DNA from: a virus | Length of the DNA: 40,127 nt | Strand: one strand, 5' to 3' | IMG/VR virus record: IMGVR_UViG_3300042386_000480 | Coordinates: 1-40,127 of that record | Shown here: one piece after another, positions 11,845 to 36,775 of the stretch | Position numbering within the stretch: position 1 is the first letter of the stretch | Layout: each line of letters starts with the position of its first letter | Notes under the pieces: model-generated | Seen by the model: the letters and a program-made list of their open reading frames with translations, nothing else | Told to the model about the DNA's origin: nothing | Database searches by the model: none | Made by a program: the position numbers and the translations under genes

Positions 11845-13860
11845 TTATCCTCTAGACATTCTAGGTTTAAACAAATTCATTTCTTCGTAATGATTGCCAC
11901 CAAGCATACCAGCCCAATCTGGCCACTCAATATCTCCTGGCATATTATAAGCAAATCCAGCTTGATTTGAATTATGCATTCTATTTGGTTCTGCATTGAC
12001 TTGTGGGGTGTGCGAAGAAACTTGAGCTTCTTGAACTGTTTGTTCAGTAGCTTGCGAAGTAACTGCAGCTTGGTTTAATGCTTGTGCGTTCAATGCTGGC
12101 ATCGATGGTGTTGATACTAATTCTGATTGTATAGTTGAGGCAATCATTGGTAGTAACATTCCTGCAATACCACCAATTCCTCCACCCATCATTCCTGGTA
12201 TCATACCCATCATTTGACCCATCATATTTGCGCCAGCTGGTGGGGCTGCAATTCCGGGAGATATAGGCGCTTGTGCTACTGGTTCAGCCGCCATAGGTGT
12301 AGCTGCAGGCGGAGCAGTAGATGCAGTAGATCCAGCGGCTGGAGTTGCTCCTTGCATCGCTCTTTGTTCTGGCGAACCTGCTATTTGATATGTGTCTGGA
12401 ACAGACTGCGCCCCACCTTTTGGAATTTCAGCATGTAGATGATTATTATGACCAGCAGCTGCATATGGTCCGCTTTCTCTCCAATAAACTTTATATCCTA
12501 GTCTAGTCAATTGTTCGGCTAGTTGATCAAACTTGGCTCCCATAACAGGATCCTTTGCTTCAACGTTACCTTCACCAAAATTGATATCAATTGCTCTGCC
12601 TTCATAATGCGCCTTACCTTTATGAACAGGTTTAACGCCGCCGAACTGCGGATGTTCAGAGATACGCATTCCCATTTTTTCTAGAGCATGACCAAGAGCA
12701 ACAACATCACCAGAAGGCAATGAAGCACTTACTTGTTCGCCATGTTTATGATCCTCATGAGCAGCGCCACTTACTGGACCATGACCGCCTTCTTTGCCTA
12801 TACGTTCTGTTCGAGGATCATTAGCAGAAGGAATTGCTTCAGGCGCTGACACTGGAGTAGCAGATGGGGTTGTTGTTGGCGTAGTTGTTTGTGGAGTGGT
12901 TGATATTTCAGGAGCCTTCATTTTAGAAGTATCAACGTTTATTCCTTGAAACTCTCCAATCCCAGCAGTCTTACGACCATACCATTGACCCCAACCTTTT
13001 TTCTTTGCTTCATCAAGAGCAAAATCTATTTGTTTCTGAAGAGAAGCAGCTGATCGATCTGTTGCTGGGTCAATACCTGTTGCAGCTTTAAACCTATCAC
13101 CAAGACCTTCTGGGCCACCAGTGCCTTTACCAACCAATAATTGGAATGGTCCATATGAAGGTTCTCTTTCCATACCCCATTTTTTGCCTGGAGCCGATGA
13201 TCTATATGTATTCAAACCTTCTGATTTAGCGATACCAACAGCTGTTTCAGGATCAATTCCACGTTGTATGGCAGACTTTCTGATCATGTCTGCCACATTT
13301 TGTCTGCTTAATCCAGATTGTTCGTATCCAGAACCGCTGCCTTCTTTTACTTCTTGTCTACCTAGACCTCCACCGCCCATAGCACCCAGAGCTGTCATTC
13401 CACCACCAGCTACAGCAGCTCCAACTCCCATTAATGCTAGTTGCTTAGCAAAATCTGTGCTTAGATTGGAAATACTTCCCAACAACCCACTGCTAGTATT
13501 ATTCATAATGTTACGGTTTAAAGATTCAATGTCACCGCTGAGAATACGAGTGTTTTTGGTAACATTGCTCATCTCGGTGCGCATAGAATTTTGTATTTCT
13601 AAAGACTCTCTGAATAGAGAATTTAGACTGTCAATTTTGTTACCAGTTTGCTGAGACTCAGAAACCATTTCCTCAAGCACATTATGAAGATCTGCGATAT
13701 CTTCTCTCTGTGCTTTGAAGGTTGTAGAAATATCTTTGACTATTCTGCTGAGATTAGCGTTGCTGGCATTGGCTGCTTGACGGAATTCGCCTGCAGTTTC
13801 AACTCCAGCATTTCTAATGCTTCTAGATATTACCGCTAATTCTTCTGCTTCTATGGCCAT
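11845..13860 (-). CDS. tape-measure-like tail protein with two peptidoglycan hydrolase-like domains
   Basis: A 671-residue protein. Residues 1-120 are helical and coiled-coil-like; about 125-165 is a hydrophobic Gly/Ala stretch (LMGVGAAVAGGGM). Residues about 185-300 resemble a lysozyme/transglycosylase (AKSEGLNTYRS with catalytic-type Glu, then SYGPFQLL). Residues about 380-480 resemble an M15-type peptidase: HYEGRAIDIN (His, Asp) and HNNHLHAEIP (His-x-His). A second Met/Gly-rich hydrophobic region follows near 550-590. Directly downstream of the gp26 frameshift pair, this is the place of a tape measure. The length fits a roughly 100 nm tail if about 1.5 angstrom per residue applies. It could instead be a hub lysin. 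Confidence 0.7.
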   Translation of the reverse strand: MAIEAEELAVISRSIRNAGVETAGEFRQAANASNANLSRIVKDISTTFKAQREDIADLHNVLEEMVSESQQTGNKIDSLNSLFRESLEIQNSMRTEMSNVTKNTRILSGDIESLNRNIMNNTSSGLLGSISNLSTDFAKQLALMGVGAAVAGGGMTALGAMGGGGLGRQEVKEGSGSGYEQSGLSRQNVADMIRKSAIQRGIDPETAVGIAKSEGLNTYRSSAPGKKWGMEREPSYGPFQLLVGKGTGGPEGLGDRFKAATGIDPATDRSAASLQKQIDFALDEAKKKGWGQWYGRKTAGIGEFQGINVDTSKMKAPEISTTPQTTTPTTTPSATPVSAPEAIPSANDPRTERIGKEGGHGPVSGAAHEDHKHGEQVSASLPSGDVVALGHALEKMGMRISEHPQFGGVKPVHKGKAHYEGRAIDINFGEGNVEAKDPVMGAKFDQLAEQLTRLGYKVYWRESGPYAAAGHNNHLHAEIPKGGAQSVPDTYQIAGSPEQRAMQGATPAAGSTASTAPPAATPMAAEPVAQAPISPGIAAPPAGANMMGQMMGMIPGMMGGGIGGIAGMLLPMIASTIQSELVSTPSMPALNAQALNQAAVTSQATEQTVQEAQVSSHTPQVNAEPNRMHNSNQAGFAYNMPGDIEWPDWAGMLGGNHYEEMNLFKPRMSRG

Positions 13861-13863
13861 TTG

Positions 13864-14046
13864 TTATCCGCTGCTTTTCTTTTTAGCTTCTTCTACTTCT
13901 TTTAAGTAGTTGACGAGCATTTGAACGTATATATCTCTTTCAAAGGGTATCATAGATTCTATTTCACTAATTGAATATTTATGGTGCTGAGCCAAAGAGA
14001 ATATAGTAGCAAAATAATTAGATAATGTACTATGACTCAGCGCCAC
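13864..14046 (-). CDS. -1 frameshift extension of gp26 (tail assembly chaperone-like)
   Basis: A 60-codon frame in the -1 register relative to gp26, overlapping its end by ten bases. It could start alone at GTG 14046 but there is no ribosome binding site (the upstream sequence is the T tract). Fusion through the slippery heptamer at 14055-14049 would make a 294-residue product: 233 gp26 residues, then YVALSHSTLSNYF onward. The tail (SISEIESMIPFERDIYVQML) is a short helical domain typical of the T part of tail assembly chaperones. It ends four bases before the tape-measure-like start. Confidence 0.7.
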   Translation of the reverse strand: MALSHSTLSNYFATIFSLAQHHKYSISEIESMIPFERDIYVQMLVNYLKEVEEAKKKSSG

Positions 14047-14055
14047 GTAAAAAAA
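13981..14055 (-). promoter_or_regulatory. programmed -1 frameshift signal
   Basis: On the minus strand, zero frame reads GA(T TTT TTT) ACG: a canonical X XXY YYZ heptamer at 14055-14049. Starting four bases later, GGCGCTGAGTC (14044-14034) pairs with GGCTCAGCACC (13993-13983) in 10 of 11 positions, one G.U included and one C/A mismatch; TG (14046-14045) can extend it. The loop is about 40 bases. If the base of the stem opens at the mismatch, the spacer becomes seven bases, an ordinary value. Confidence 0.78.
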
Positions 14056-19392: not shown

Positions 19393-19799
19393 TGTTTTAT
19401 ATTGCTGAAGTTAGAAATTTTGAAGAAGATCCGACTAGATCTGGACGTGTTAAGGTTAGAATATATAACGAACATAACGATGAACAATCAATTAAAGACG
19501 AAGAACTTCCATGGGCTATGGTTGTTCAACCAGTAACATCGGCTGCAACATCAAGAATTGGTGTTTCGCCTTCTGGTCTTAAAGTTGGTTCTAGAGTGTT
19601 GGTTACATATTTACCTCATGATACTGCTATGCAATATCCTATTGTTCTTGGGTCATTAGCACGTGGTGATATGCCAGAAGGTCATGATGATAGTAATGGC
19701 GGTGTTGGTCAACAAAGTCAAGAAGCCCAAAGAAATTCCGGTGGTAAAATTAGAAAACCTGGTATTGATAATCCTGCATGGACAAGGAAAAGTAATTAA
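19392..19799 (+). CDS. gp5-type OB-fold spike domain protein
   Basis: A 135-residue protein beginning MFYIAEVRNFEEDPTRSGRV. It contains only the OB-fold part of T4 gp5: EDPTRSGRVKVRIYNEHND, LPWAMVVQPVTSAATSRIG, GSRVLVTYLPHD and PIVLGSLARGD. In T4 this domain joins gp27 to the lysozyme and beta-helix; here both are missing from the chain, so the protein is a free adaptor. The TAATG overlaps on both sides couple it to the hub and the following gene. Confidence 0.85.
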   Translation: MFYIAEVRNFEEDPTRSGRVKVRIYNEHNDEQSIKDEELPWAMVVQPVTSAATSRIGVSPSGLKVGSRVLVTYLPHDTAMQYPIVLGSLARGDMPEGHDDSNGGVGQQSQEAQRNSGGKIRKPGIDNPAWTRKSN

Positions 19800-21268
19800 T
19801 GGCAGAAAAGGCTTTTGAAAATAACAATAAAACGGTCAGTCCTAATCATCAAACATTAGGCGGTCAAAAACCAAAGATTAATGCTGAGGTGAAATATGCA
19901 GATTCACCGGCAGTAAAACCAGACGAATCAAAAAGTTTATCAGACGCTAGAGATAAGTTTGCACCTAATGCAGACAAGCCAACTTCTGCAGCTGCTGAAA
20001 AAGGTCAAACTGACTTACCGCAATTAATGAAACAAATTGATCCTCAAGGTAAGGCTCAAGTTCTACCGCAAATGTATCCTCAGTTGATGCAGATGACTAA
20101 TATCCTTGGTATGGGCAGTGGAATGATGGGTGGTATGGGTTCTGGCGGTTCAGGTCAAAACACACCACAAGGTATTCTTGATAGCACCGATCCAGTGCCT
20201 GCAGGTATTATAACTGTAATAAATGATTCGTTTACTGGCGCTTTGGCTTTATTATCATTGAAGTATGGGTTCGAAAGAGTAATAGAAGTTTTCACAACCC
20301 TTTTGGACAATGGCGGTATTGATGAAGTCGATGACAGATTTCAAGAAATTGTTAAGAATTCTATAGCCAATCTAATTAAAGTTGCATTATATTATGGACC
20401 ATTGAATATTCCTGTATCGGTATACGATGAAACAATTTATGGCGATATTGTTCCAAGTCCTTTGATTGCAACAAGCGAAGTTCCTGACGGTTATATTAAA
20501 CAGTATTATCAAATTGCTCTTGACCCATATCCAGGTTATATAGAATGGTTGTCGCCAGACAAAACCGAAAAAGTTTATACCAGAAGAGAACCTGGAACAT
20601 TTGTGTATACCACGCCAAACGAAGAAACTTATTCTTTGTCTGAAATTGAAATAGCTACTGATCTGAAGCCATATATTTGGGTTCAGAATCCGCAGCCAAT
20701 ATTAACAATAGAAATATTGAATTATATATTAGCTAAACAAGTAGTAAACGTTGAAGATAATATAACAAACAACAATATGGGCAATAACGCTAATCAAAAC
20801 AACAGTAGTGGCGGGAGCATGGGAGGACAGTTACAGTCTCTTATGCAAATGCTTACTTCTCAGCAATTACCAAAATCTGTATTGAACCAAGGCGATATAC
20901 AAAAGACATTGAATCAATATACTAAAGATATGACTTTTAATAATCAGTTGTTTGAAATGGGTAATCAAGCCATGGGTGGTGGCGTCGGCGGCGCTCTAGG
21001 TTCATTAGGTAATATGGGTGGCATTTCAAATATCATGAGCGGATTTGGTTCTGGTGGTGGAGGTATTGGAGGAGTGCTTGGTAACATGGGTGGTGGTAAT
21101 CTACTCGGTAGTTTTGGTGGTTTTGGTGGCGGATCCGGCGGCGGTGGTGGTGGAGCTGGTAGTGGTTTCCCAGGAGCTTCTGGCGGCGGATATTATGCTG
21201 GTGGCGATGTAACTGAAACAGGCAAGAAAAATATTTCTCAGATGTTAACATTGTTAGGTGTAAGTTAA
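19799..21268 (+). CDS. Gly-rich hub- or spike-associated structural protein
   Basis: A 489-residue protein of unrecognised family between the OB-fold and beta-helix genes. Residues 1-90 are low complexity and polar. A folded core lies at about 120-310 (PAGIITVINDSFTGALALLS, then YGPLNIPVSVYDETIYGDIV and EWLSPDKTEKVYTRREPGTF). Residues about 320-470 are Asn/Gln- then Gly/Met-rich, with long GGG runs. It probably belongs to the virion hub, from its place alone. No hydrolase motif is visible. Confidence 0.65.
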   Translation: MAEKAFENNNKTVSPNHQTLGGQKPKINAEVKYADSPAVKPDESKSLSDARDKFAPNADKPTSAAAEKGQTDLPQLMKQIDPQGKAQVLPQMYPQLMQMTNILGMGSGMMGGMGSGGSGQNTPQGILDSTDPVPAGIITVINDSFTGALALLSLKYGFERVIEVFTTLLDNGGIDEVDDRFQEIVKNSIANLIKVALYYGPLNIPVSVYDETIYGDIVPSPLIATSEVPDGYIKQYYQIALDPYPGYIEWLSPDKTEKVYTRREPGTFVYTTPNEETYSLSEIEIATDLKPYIWVQNPQPILTIEILNYILAKQVVNVEDNITNNNMGNNANQNNSSGGSMGGQLQSLMQMLTSQQLPKSVLNQGDIQKTLNQYTKDMTFNNQLFEMGNQAMGGGVGGALGSLGNMGGISNIMSGFGSGGGGIGGVLGNMGGGNLLGSFGGFGGGSGGGGGGAGSGFPGASGGGYYAGGDVTETGKKNISQMLTLLGVS

Positions 21269-22086
21269 TGGTAGATCATAACAAAAAAGTTCCAAAATCA
21301 GCATTAGATGAGAATGACATTGAACCAAAGTATGGTTACGTTCATGGCGAATGGGACGCTCTTGGAGGACATCATCTAACATACCGCAATCCAGATGAAC
21401 ATGAAAAGTCGTATTCAGAATCATTGACCCCAAGCGGTAGTTATCAAATAACGCACCACGATCAAGATAAAAAAGAAATTCATACTTCAGTAAATCCCGG
21501 CGAACATAGAGGTTATGTTGGCGGTGGTAAGTCAGTTCAAGTAGATGGTCATTTTGATCACAATGGCGAAAAGACTGGTAGAATGGAACATGGCGATGAC
21601 TTTGGTCATGTTGCTGGTAAAAACTATTACAGAGGAACTGGTAAAAAAGAATTTAAGATGTCTGGAGATTCCAGATACAACGGTGTTCAGCAAGGTTCAG
21701 CGCCAGTTCATTGTAATGTTGATGCAGGAACCAATCGTCATAGAGTAAAGGGTGATAGATTTAACGCCACTGAAGGCGATTATGTATCTATGGGTGAAAA
21801 GAAAAAGATCGAAGTGTTCCAGAAAGACGTTTCGTTGTATGCTGGAGCCAATTACGACAACTATGTTAGCGAAAAAGGTAAAATAGAAACAGGTAGCACT
21901 ATGATGGTGCAGACTGGTTCAACAGCTACCATTAATTCCGCTTCAGATGCTTTTGTTAAGGCAGCAACTGATATTACAATAGATGCTGGATCTAAGGTAA
22001 CTATAAAGGTTGGTGGTTCTAGTATTGTTATAGAAAGCGGCACCATAACAATTAAATCTGCATCTATTAAGTTTGAGCAAGGTTAA
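21268..22086 (+). CDS. beta-helix spike protein (gp5 C-terminal type)
   Basis: A 272-residue protein. The last 75 residues are a short-period beta repeat (GSTMMVQTGSTATINSASDA, then ITIDAGSKVTIKVGGSSIVI and ESGTITIKSAS), the pattern of the triple-stranded beta-helix of T4 gp5 and VgrG spikes. The first 190 residues are His/Gly/Asp-rich (GHHLTYRNPDEHEKSY, ITHHDQDKKEIHTS). It forms the membrane-piercing needle that carries the PAAR tip encoded next. Confidence 0.8.
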   Translation: MVDHNKKVPKSALDENDIEPKYGYVHGEWDALGGHHLTYRNPDEHEKSYSESLTPSGSYQITHHDQDKKEIHTSVNPGEHRGYVGGGKSVQVDGHFDHNGEKTGRMEHGDDFGHVAGKNYYRGTGKKEFKMSGDSRYNGVQQGSAPVHCNVDAGTNRHRVKGDRFNATEGDYVSMGEKKKIEVFQKDVSLYAGANYDNYVSEKGKIETGSTMMVQTGSTATINSASDAFVKAATDITIDAGSKVTIKVGGSSIVIESGTITIKSASIKFEQG

Positions 22087-34039: not shown

Positions 34040-36775
34040 TTGGCAGCAGTAAATACAACATCTACTACAACAACAGTAACTAATACCAGAGATGGTACTC
34101 AGATTACTGTTACGCCTCAGACTGATCTTCAACAGGTAGGTAATTTTGTTACTTCTGTTTCCAATCAACCATTTATCGCCAATAGAATTGTTTCATTCGT
34201 CGCATACAATATGCGCCCTAATCAGAGATTGCATTTTTTCTTTGATAGTATTAATGTTGATGCTTATTGCGCTCCAGCGCAGAGAACAGGCAGCACAGCT
34301 AATACATACCAGATACCATTAAATGCTGCAGATTATACAATTGTACCAAAGGGCGGTAATTGGGGAGATGCAATCTATTCTGATAAATGGGGTAGAGTAG
34401 CAGGACAGTTCAATATTCCTGCAGGTAAATTCAAAACAGGAGATAGAGCGTTCCAAATAGCAGACGTAGACAGTTTGGCTTTGGGTAATGATGCTCTCAC
34501 TTCTTTGGCTTCTGTGGTATTCACCGCTTCTAACTTGAGCGTGACCAAACAAGCTACCACTTTAACAACTGTGACTCCGGATTTAGGTTTTGTTCCTGTA
34601 ACACAAACCGTAGTTCAGAGTAATACAGTAACATCACAAACTAATATTCTAGATGTCGTTACTATTCTGCCTCCTCCGCCACCTCCACCTCCTCCAATTT
34701 GGTTGTTCTTTTTAGAACCGTTAGCGCAGGCGTTGACAATTAATACTCCAAATGGAGAAGCAGGAATATACGCCACAGCTCTAAGACTTTTCTTCAAACA
34801 AAAATCACAGATAAGAGAAAATGGTGTAACAGTATATCTTTGTGAAACTGAAAATGGATACCCAAATGGCGATGTGATCTTACCATTTTCCAAAGTTCAT
34901 AAAAGTTACGATGAAATAAACATTAGCGCAGATGCTACAAATCCGACTACATTTACTTTTCAATCTCCAGTTTTTTTGATGAATGGCAAAACATATGCTT
35001 TCGTGGTAAGACCTGACGCAAACGACCCAGATTATCATGTATGGACTTGTAATCTCGGAGACGTTGATATTGAAACTGGTTATCAAGTGTACAGTCAGCC
35101 CGTAGTGGGGACAGCTTTTTATGGCGCCACCGAAAAACAATGGACTGCTCTTCAGGAAGAATACGTAAAGTTCAATTTATATAGAGCAAATTTTAAGACC
35201 AATGAAGGTCAGGCTGTATTCTACAACAGTAATAACGAATATGTTTCGGTATATAACGTAGGTTACGTCAATACTAGTGCAAGTATCATTTCCGGAGATG
35301 TCGTATTCAAATCAACAAATTCAACATCAAATGCTACTGGTGGAACGGTCAATACTAGTGTTTATGCTACAATCAATTATTATGATGCTGTTAAGAACAT
35401 TCTATATTGCGATTCTTCTACTGGTAATTTTAGCGGTAACTCTTATGTTCAGATTCATAGATTTAGTAACACAACGATTTCAAGCCCAAATAACACAACT
35501 CTGATTGCATACGCTAATAGTGGCACATTATACAATCCAGTAGTAGACGCTGTTGTTCCACAGTTGGCATTTATTACCCCTGCAGGAACAACTTTGGACC
35601 TCTATTATAGAGGTACAAGTAATACATACTCGGTTGATACTTTGGACAACAGAGTAACTCCTGGTTATGAATCTGAATTCTACGACAGAGAAAGAATAGT
35701 TGCTAGTAGATCAAACGAAATTACTAGCATGAGTGGCGCTAAATCGTTCACTTATAAAGCTAGAATGGTCAGTGATAGTGCTTTCCTTTCTCCTGCTATT
35801 GACACTGTCAGAGATCAGCAGTTAGTAATTAAAAATGAAATTGATCCGGTCAATTTCCAATACGACGAATTCTTTAATTCTGGTGATGCGAAATCAAAAT
35901 ATGTATCAAAGGTTGTCAGCCTTGCTGCAGGTCAAGATGCAGAGGACATTCAAGTTGTTCTAACTGCGTTCAGACCAGTTGGTTCAGAAGTAGAAGTTTG
36001 GGTCAAGTTCCTTAATGGCGAAGATCCAGAACCAATTTCTCAGAAAACATGGACTCCTTTGATCAATAGTTCTTTGGATTATTATTCAGATCCAAGTAAC
36101 CCAAGCGATTTTAAAGAATATACATTTACAACCTCTTCAAACTATCCTGCTCTTAAAATGACAGGAACAGTAACATGCAATACTGCTTGCACAACAGTCG
36201 TTGGCACAAGCACTCTATTTACAACTGAGTTGAGTCCTGGTTGGTTTATGTATGCTATACCAAATGACACTACTATTAACACTATTTACAGCAGAAAGAT
36301 TATTAGTATAACTAGCAATACTAATCTAACTCTAGAATCAGCACCTAGTTCTAATGCTACTGCGCAGACTGCTTATTTGGCTTTCCCTCCGACTACAGCT
36401 TTCATGTCTAGACAAAACGTCACTCAATTAACAGGTAATGTTACTGTATCGACAACCAATAACGCTGTTATCGGAAACGGAACAACTTTCATTACAGACT
36501 TTAGACCTGGAAATATTGTTCAAGTCGCCAACGATTCGCAGATAATTGTTTCTGTTGCTAATAACACATATTTGACTGTAGGAACTCCATGGAGTTCAAA
36601 CGCTTCTGGGGCTAATGTTTATTTCGAGAGTCCTTTAGGGTTGACTTATTCTAGTTTGGACGGTAAGACATATACTTCGTTCAAACAATTCCAAATTAAA
36701 ATCGTTCTCAAATCAAATGATAGCTCAAAAGTGCCTATTATCGATGATTTAAGAGCTCTAGCATTACAGATGTAA
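34040..36775 (+). CDS. large virion protein, companion of the DUF4815 protein (TTG start)
   Basis: A 911-residue protein beginning MAAVNTTSTTTTVTNTRDGT. Residues about 50-90 (QPFIANRIVSFVAYNMRPNQ, RLHFFFDSINVDAYC) resemble a segment found in long DUF4815-type proteins, suggesting the two genes are parts of one ancestral chain. An LPP-type polyproline run (nine Pro, near 212-220) links to a beta domain. Two copies of a TGxVTVxxxxxxVVGxGTxF domain begin near 707 and 797. The TTG start follows AGGAG and the same ATTTAAATTGGCA context as the 27968 gene. Confidence 0.65.
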   Translation: MAAVNTTSTTTTVTNTRDGTQITVTPQTDLQQVGNFVTSVSNQPFIANRIVSFVAYNMRPNQRLHFFFDSINVDAYCAPAQRTGSTANTYQIPLNAADYTIVPKGGNWGDAIYSDKWGRVAGQFNIPAGKFKTGDRAFQIADVDSLALGNDALTSLASVVFTASNLSVTKQATTLTTVTPDLGFVPVTQTVVQSNTVTSQTNILDVVTILPPPPPPPPPIWLFFLEPLAQALTINTPNGEAGIYATALRLFFKQKSQIRENGVTVYLCETENGYPNGDVILPFSKVHKSYDEINISADATNPTTFTFQSPVFLMNGKTYAFVVRPDANDPDYHVWTCNLGDVDIETGYQVYSQPVVGTAFYGATEKQWTALQEEYVKFNLYRANFKTNEGQAVFYNSNNEYVSVYNVGYVNTSASIISGDVVFKSTNSTSNATGGTVNTSVYATINYYDAVKNILYCDSSTGNFSGNSYVQIHRFSNTTISSPNNTTLIAYANSGTLYNPVVDAVVPQLAFITPAGTTLDLYYRGTSNTYSVDTLDNRVTPGYESEFYDRERIVASRSNEITSMSGAKSFTYKARMVSDSAFLSPAIDTVRDQQLVIKNEIDPVNFQYDEFFNSGDAKSKYVSKVVSLAAGQDAEDIQVVLTAFRPVGSEVEVWVKFLNGEDPEPISQKTWTPLINSSLDYYSDPSNPSDFKEYTFTTSSNYPALKMTGTVTCNTACTTVVGTSTLFTTELSPGWFMYAIPNDTTINTIYSRKIISITSNTNLTLESAPSSNATAQTAYLAFPPTTAFMSRQNVTQLTGNVTVSTTNNAVIGNGTTFITDFRPGNIVQVANDSQIIVSVANNTYLTVGTPWSSNASGANVYFESPLGLTYSSLDGKTYTSFKQFQIKIVLKSNDSSKVPIIDDLRALALQM

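Follow-up and report, generated by a model that had tools for sequence, protein, structure and literature searches.

The tail assembly chaperones of phage lambda, gpG and gpGT, are a short and a long protein; the short domain binds the tape measure, while tail tube subunits are recruited through the C-terminal domain (PMC5009743). A 2016 review calls the underlying G-T frameshift widely conserved in long-tailed phages, 'except T4' (PMC5009743). The T4 proteins gp26 and gp51 have been assigned to hub assembly (PMC3004832). For T4-like phages, the tail assembly chaperones were identified by Vladimirov, Gautam & Davidson (Virology 2022;566:9-15), a study cited by PMC10885494 and PMC12846349. As this work is cited, some T4-like phages replace frameshifting by a pair of genes, one short and one a long fusion (PMC10885494), while poly-T slippery sequences in the TAC-N genes of T4-like phages are also credited to it (PMC12846349); by its title and the citing papers, the system consists of a short TAC-N and a long TAC-NC form. 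Vandenendeviridae phage Adele carries a conserved poly-T -1 slip site (motif GTTTTT) at the end of its TAC-N gene, and its -1 frame stays open over a long stretch ahead of the tape measure gene (PMC12846349).

The locus analyzed here is located on a viral DNA of 40,127 nucleotides (IMG/VR record IMGVR_UViG_3300042386_000480, positions 1 to 40,127), and this whole stretch is referred to as the window. One gene appears to be responsible for both a 236-aa short and a 294-aa long tail assembly chaperone, through -1 ribosomal frameshifting on the heptamer T TTT TTT (Table 1); we estimate the probability of this reading at about 0.93. A programmed -1 frameshift joining gp26 to a small C-terminal domain had been proposed in a sequence-only reading of the same DNA, and is supported by the anatomy of the site, its conservation, the covariation of a downstream stem and the homology with gp26 and gp51. 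The individual elements named in that reading, i.e. T TTT TTT in the zero frame near the gp26 stop, an 11-bp imperfect stem starting four bases later, and a 60-codon -1 frame that lacks a ribosome binding site and ends directly before a tape-measure-like gene, were all located. As in lambda gpG/gpGT, the proposed -1 slip falls close to where the short gene ends, the tape measure gene follows and the tail tube gene precedes, and the C-terminal domain belongs to the long form only. The slippery sequence of gpG/gpGT differs from T TTT TTT. The studied phage furthermore possesses a downstream stem that is conserved and covaries. The likeness to Adele is one of arrangement and concerns both the poly-T slip site and the open -1 frame, with T TTT TTT here versus GTTTTT there. 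A two-form frameshifted chaperone is already known in kind, also from relatives of T4. Vladimirov, Gautam and Davidson are said to have found frameshifting to be a conserved trait of several T4-like groups, with T4 itself relying on genes 26 and 51.

Table 1 Features of the putative chaperone locus (window coordinates)
Feature	Position	Strand	Evidence or remark
Tail tube gene, adjoining the chaperone gene on its upstream side	15428-14763	minus	phrog_45, E 4.3e-21; PF23849, E 1.1e-10
gp26-like gene, putative short form of the tail assembly chaperone (TAC-N), 236 aa	14747-14037	minus	PF12322; phrog_150; predicted fold
Slippery heptamer T TTT TTT, proposed -1 slip site	14055-14049	minus	invariant in relatives
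-1 frame, gp51-type C-terminal domain (TAC-C), 63 codons counted from the heptamer, followed by a stop	14055-13864	minus	phrog_634
Arms of the full 11-position stem	14044-14034 (GGCGCTGAGTC) with 13993-13983 (GGCTCAGCACC)	minus	one C.A mismatch, one U.G pair
Conserved 9-bp core of the stem, 5' arm	14041-14033	minus	pairing across relatives
Conserved 9-bp core of the stem, 3' arm	13994-13986	minus	38-nt loop between the core arms
UGA stop of the short form, inside the 5' arm of the stem	14039-14037	minus	TTT TTT ACG TGG CGC TGA
Tape-measure-like gene, 671 aa, downstream	13860-11845	minus	phrog_9483 (tape measure), E 0.0014; tblastn

The gp26-like gene is preceded by a GGAG Shine-Dalgarno sequence. 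Its product matches Pfam family PF12322 (T4_baseplate, E 1.1e-53), so that the core is present in the short form, and PHROG family phrog_150 ('baseplate hub', E 3e-57). The fold predicted for gp26 modelled alone is confident (mean pLDDT 90.7), and model-versus-model comparison matched it to models of T4-type gp26 and 'baseplate hub assembly chaperone' proteins. Compared to PDB structures, the tail assembly chaperone of HK97 (2ob9) was among the top matches and the only chaperone among the PDB fold matches listed, at an insignificant E value of 1.1 and a probability of 0.47; no listed PDB match was significant. The likeness of this gp26 to lambda gpG is one of arrangement, with the HK97 match as no more than a suggestion of a shared fold or ancestry. 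A sequence search of the PDB with a gp26 profile yielded no chaperone and nothing else of relevance, and NCBIfam provided no useful names. The earlier proposal that gp26 is the short form of a tail assembly chaperone is nevertheless well served by the combination of a conserved heptamer, a gp51-type domain in the -1 frame, and tail tube and tape-measure-like genes as neighbours.

The last codons of gp26 read GAT TTT TTT ACG TGG CGC TGA. The heptamer has the X XXY YYZ pattern in the correct zero frame (GA/T TTT TTT/ACG), i.e. in the phase that a tandem -1 slip requires; between the last TTT and the stop lie three sense codons. The window's main genes, 9,019 codons in all, contain two in-frame T TTT TTY sites, of which only the heptamer site is near a stop. 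The other site, T TTT TTC at codon 65 of a 911-codon gene (34040-36775), is without sign of programming.

Relatives of gp26 were collected from 80 IMG/VR loci. Together with the window these provided 44 distinct slip regions with gp26 identities of about 53-94 %; L028 and L029 were left out of scoring, as their contigs end there. T TTT TTT was invariant in all 44 regions (the window plus close and mid-range relatives), and the distance from the heptamer to the stop codon was identical throughout. All 88 Phe codons at the slip site are TTT, while elsewhere in the same gp26 genes TTT accounts for 355 of 565 Phe codons (63 %) and TTC for the other 210. Second and third scans, with gp26 of a Synechococcus phage and of a Sinorhizobium phage as queries, yielded 88 further scorable distinct sites from distant T4-type lineages; a Vibrio phage gp26 query retrieved no relatives among the viral contigs. 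At these distant sites T TTT TTC (80 sites) or T TTT TTT (7 sites) was found in 87 of 88 cases. The lone exception is L154, a marine viral contig in which the gp26 frame is broken at codon 87, either by a sequencing error or because the gene is defective. Furthermore, 14 out of 14 public records, from phages of cyanobacteria, rhizobia, Vibrio, Aeromonas, Cronobacter and Ochrobactrum and from one marine single-cell contig, have T TTT TTC, TTT or TTG at the homologous place, and the C-terminal domain in the -1 frame. Conservation of the heptamer and of an open -1 frame, which had been put forward as a check on the frameshift proposal, was thus found in near and distant relatives. A lost -1 frame or a heptamer broken by synonymous changes, named in the sequence-only reading as evidence that would speak against it, was not encountered at any of the 44 + 88 sites; the gp26 frame of L154 is already broken upstream.

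The -1 frame, which reads FFYVALSHSTLSNYFATIFSLAQHHKYSISEIESMIPFERDIYVQMLVNYLKEVEEAKKKSSG, begins with FFYVALSH and ends with KKKSSG. It matches phrog_634 ('baseplate hub assembly catalyst', gp51) with an E value of 6.9e-25, and also matches the C-terminal end of phrog_150. Residues 1-231 of gp26 followed by the -1 frame would constitute the 294-aa long form (TAC-NC), with the junction NDFF/YVALSH, and in the studied phage the gp51-type C-terminal domain is confined to this long form. A tblastn search with the C-terminal domain retrieved 583 phage records. The frame stops at 13864, three bases short of the start codon (ATG, 13860) of the following gene. Its length was dropped as evidence: 16 % of window positions are open for at least 58 codons, so that length means little and it is the conservation that carries weight. 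In the 44 slip regions the -1 frame is open for 54-59 codons beyond the gp26 stop.

The -1 frame could alternatively be a separate small gene, 'gp51', that is read on its own, by re-initiation or translational coupling following the gp26 stop. Most public cyanophage records indeed annotate a separate CDS, 'baseplate hub assembly catalyst', and the GTG at 14046, from which the frame counts 60 codons, is close to the gp26 stop and could serve as a start. No Shine-Dalgarno sequence is present at this GTG, however (preceding sequence TTTTTTTAC), and a start codon is not conserved, with 22 of the 44 slip regions lacking ATG, GTG or TTG in the first 20 codons of the -1 frame. Conservation of the protein product begins exactly at the heptamer (FFY) rather than at any start codon. 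In 23 of the 44 regions a TGA in the -1 frame directly adjoins the heptamer, and in those the conserved frame can therefore only be reached at or after the slip site. Independent translation would also have no need of T TTT TTY, which is kept almost everywhere, and the homologous domain of T4 is fused in frame to a gp26-like core. Translation as a separate gene is considered very improbable for these reasons.

Downstream of the heptamer, the 11-position imperfect stem begins after 4 nt and its conserved 9-bp core after 7 nt, inside the range of 5-9 nt for a downstream stimulatory structure. The 74 nt following the heptamer fold at -22.2 kcal/mol (z = -4.85 versus dinucleotide shuffles). Among 43 distinct aligned sequences 93.3 % of the cells of the core are paired, compared to 19-40 % for slid versions of the same pairing. 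Changes on both sides were observed in 5 of the 9 core pairs, and cells with both sides changed number 27 against 4.6 +/- 5.0 after shuffling, counts that are inflated by the relatedness of the sequences. Covariation is largest at two adjacent pairs (AU/GC/GU and CG/UG/UA). Codon-level checks were made because the stem arms also encode protein in the -1 frame. Of 42 Val, Ile, Ala and Thr codons of the 3' arm that lie opposite the stop, 37 have T as their third base, compared to 173 of 425 such codons elsewhere (p = 1.6e-9, an optimistic value given that the sequences are related). When synonymous codons of the 3' arm are shuffled the pairing drops, and 25 of 2000 permutations come up to the observed level; the excess is small but real, and the test is a weak one because the codons are nearly fixed. 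The relatives with a UAA stop (L033, L037 and L046) retain a stem whose register has moved; L033, for example, pairs GCGCUAAAC with GUUUAGCGC. Some other lineages (L220, L222 and L248) have a comparable stem at the homologous position. A conserved stem was also sought in cyanophages and was not found in general, many of their sites being without significant structure, so that the stem may be a lineage-specific stimulator. The conservation expected for the stem in the earlier proposal hence holds in the studied lineage, where the predicted structure is well supported by pairing and covariation, but the stem is not universal among T4-type phages.

Another way to obtain a long form would be slippage of RNA polymerase on the T run, which would add one base to some mRNAs and allow the long form to be made by ordinary translation. 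A homopolymer of seven Ts is available for this here, and two relatives, L027 and L051, have a run of eight. Most distant relatives, with T TTT TTC, offer a run of six Ts only. Six Ts is a short run for polymerase slippage. What has been conserved is the X XXY YYZ pattern and its phase and not the length of the run, and a covarying stem 7 nt downstream fits a stimulator acting on the ribosome; polymerase slippage is likewise considered very improbable. With ribosomal frameshifting as the preferred reading, the majority of ribosomes would read gp26 up to the UGA and release the short chaperone. A minority would pause before the 9-11 bp stem, where the tRNA-Phe molecules in the P- and A-site would slip back one base on T TTT TTT. 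Having thereby escaped the UGA, these ribosomes would read on in the -1 frame and produce the long form with its gp51-type domain. We infer both that this slippage takes place on the ribosome and that it concerns a minority of ribosomes. By analogy with lambda gpG/gpGT, the short form might coat the tape measure and the C-terminal domain might recruit tail tube subunits.

We found no text in which a covarying stem spanning the short form's stop is described, and the burial of this codon in the stem may be a new detail. Compared to the system of Vladimirov, Gautam & Davidson, as far as title and citing papers portray it, the studied lineage displays T TTT TTT together with a covarying stem over the stop codon. 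It could be speculated that such a stem, with the stop in its 5' arm, couples frameshifting to termination and sets the ratio of short to long form by pausing the ribosome and delaying access to the stop, a suggestion that is tentative and on balance doubtful. The covarying stem in any case provides a clean target for studying how the short-to-long ratio is set.

The product of 11845-13860 is designated tape-measure-like on the basis of similarity. The protein has a coiled-coil-like N-terminus and a glycine-rich hydrophobic stretch, and in tblastn its residues 174-307 and 384-482 match annotated phage tape measure or injection proteins. The same two regions resemble cell-wall-degrading domains. 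Its length appears of the right order for a tape measure, given that T4 tape measure gp29 has 590 aa. The resulting order of tail tube gene, chaperone gene and tape-measure-like gene is the standard one around tail assembly chaperone genes. Elsewhere in the window, two genes of the baseplate cluster (19799-21265 and 21268-22083) have no PHROG family match.

It might be argued that both forms are made as proposed but act in assembly of the baseplate hub and not as chaperones of the tape measure. Such a role would agree with the classification of T4 gp26 and gp51 as hub assembly proteins (PMC3004832) and with the family names, which read 'baseplate hub'. The order of the genes and the design with a short and a long form, however, match tail assembly chaperones, and gp51 is absent from the T4 particle, as is the case for tail assembly chaperones. 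An exclusive role in the hub thus seems unlikely. Both views may even be one and the same, because the T4 tape measure gp29 is a component of the hub (PMC3004832).

T4 gp26 and gp51 (L081:3803-5229) each match the whole of PF12322 and are therefore paralogues; gp51 consists of the PF12322 core (residues 1-201) with the phrog_634 domain in frame. Because gp26 and gp51 share PF12322 and gp51 adds this domain, T4 has its short and long form as two genes, located on opposite strands. T4 gp26 thus corresponds to the short form, and T4 gp51 carries the core plus the same C-terminal domain as the long form. T4 needs no frameshift with its two separate genes, whereas the studied phage has one gene and a -1 frame. 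The link between a T4 hub-assembly protein and the tail assembly chaperones, also drawn in the sequence-only reading, is supported by these comparisons and had, as conveyed by the citing papers, already been published (Vladimirov et al. 2022, via PMC10885494 and PMC12846349). For a lineage distant from T4, the present data support the view that many T4-type phages have gp26 and gp51 as one frameshifted chaperone gene, with T4 as the exception.

In the cyanophage records L082, L083, L089, L094, L255 and L256 the -1 domain is annotated on its own, from starts that differ between records, or a gap follows gp26; none of these records contains a joined CDS annotation. The free-standing or missing 'gp51' annotations in public cyanophage records should become joined CDS features.
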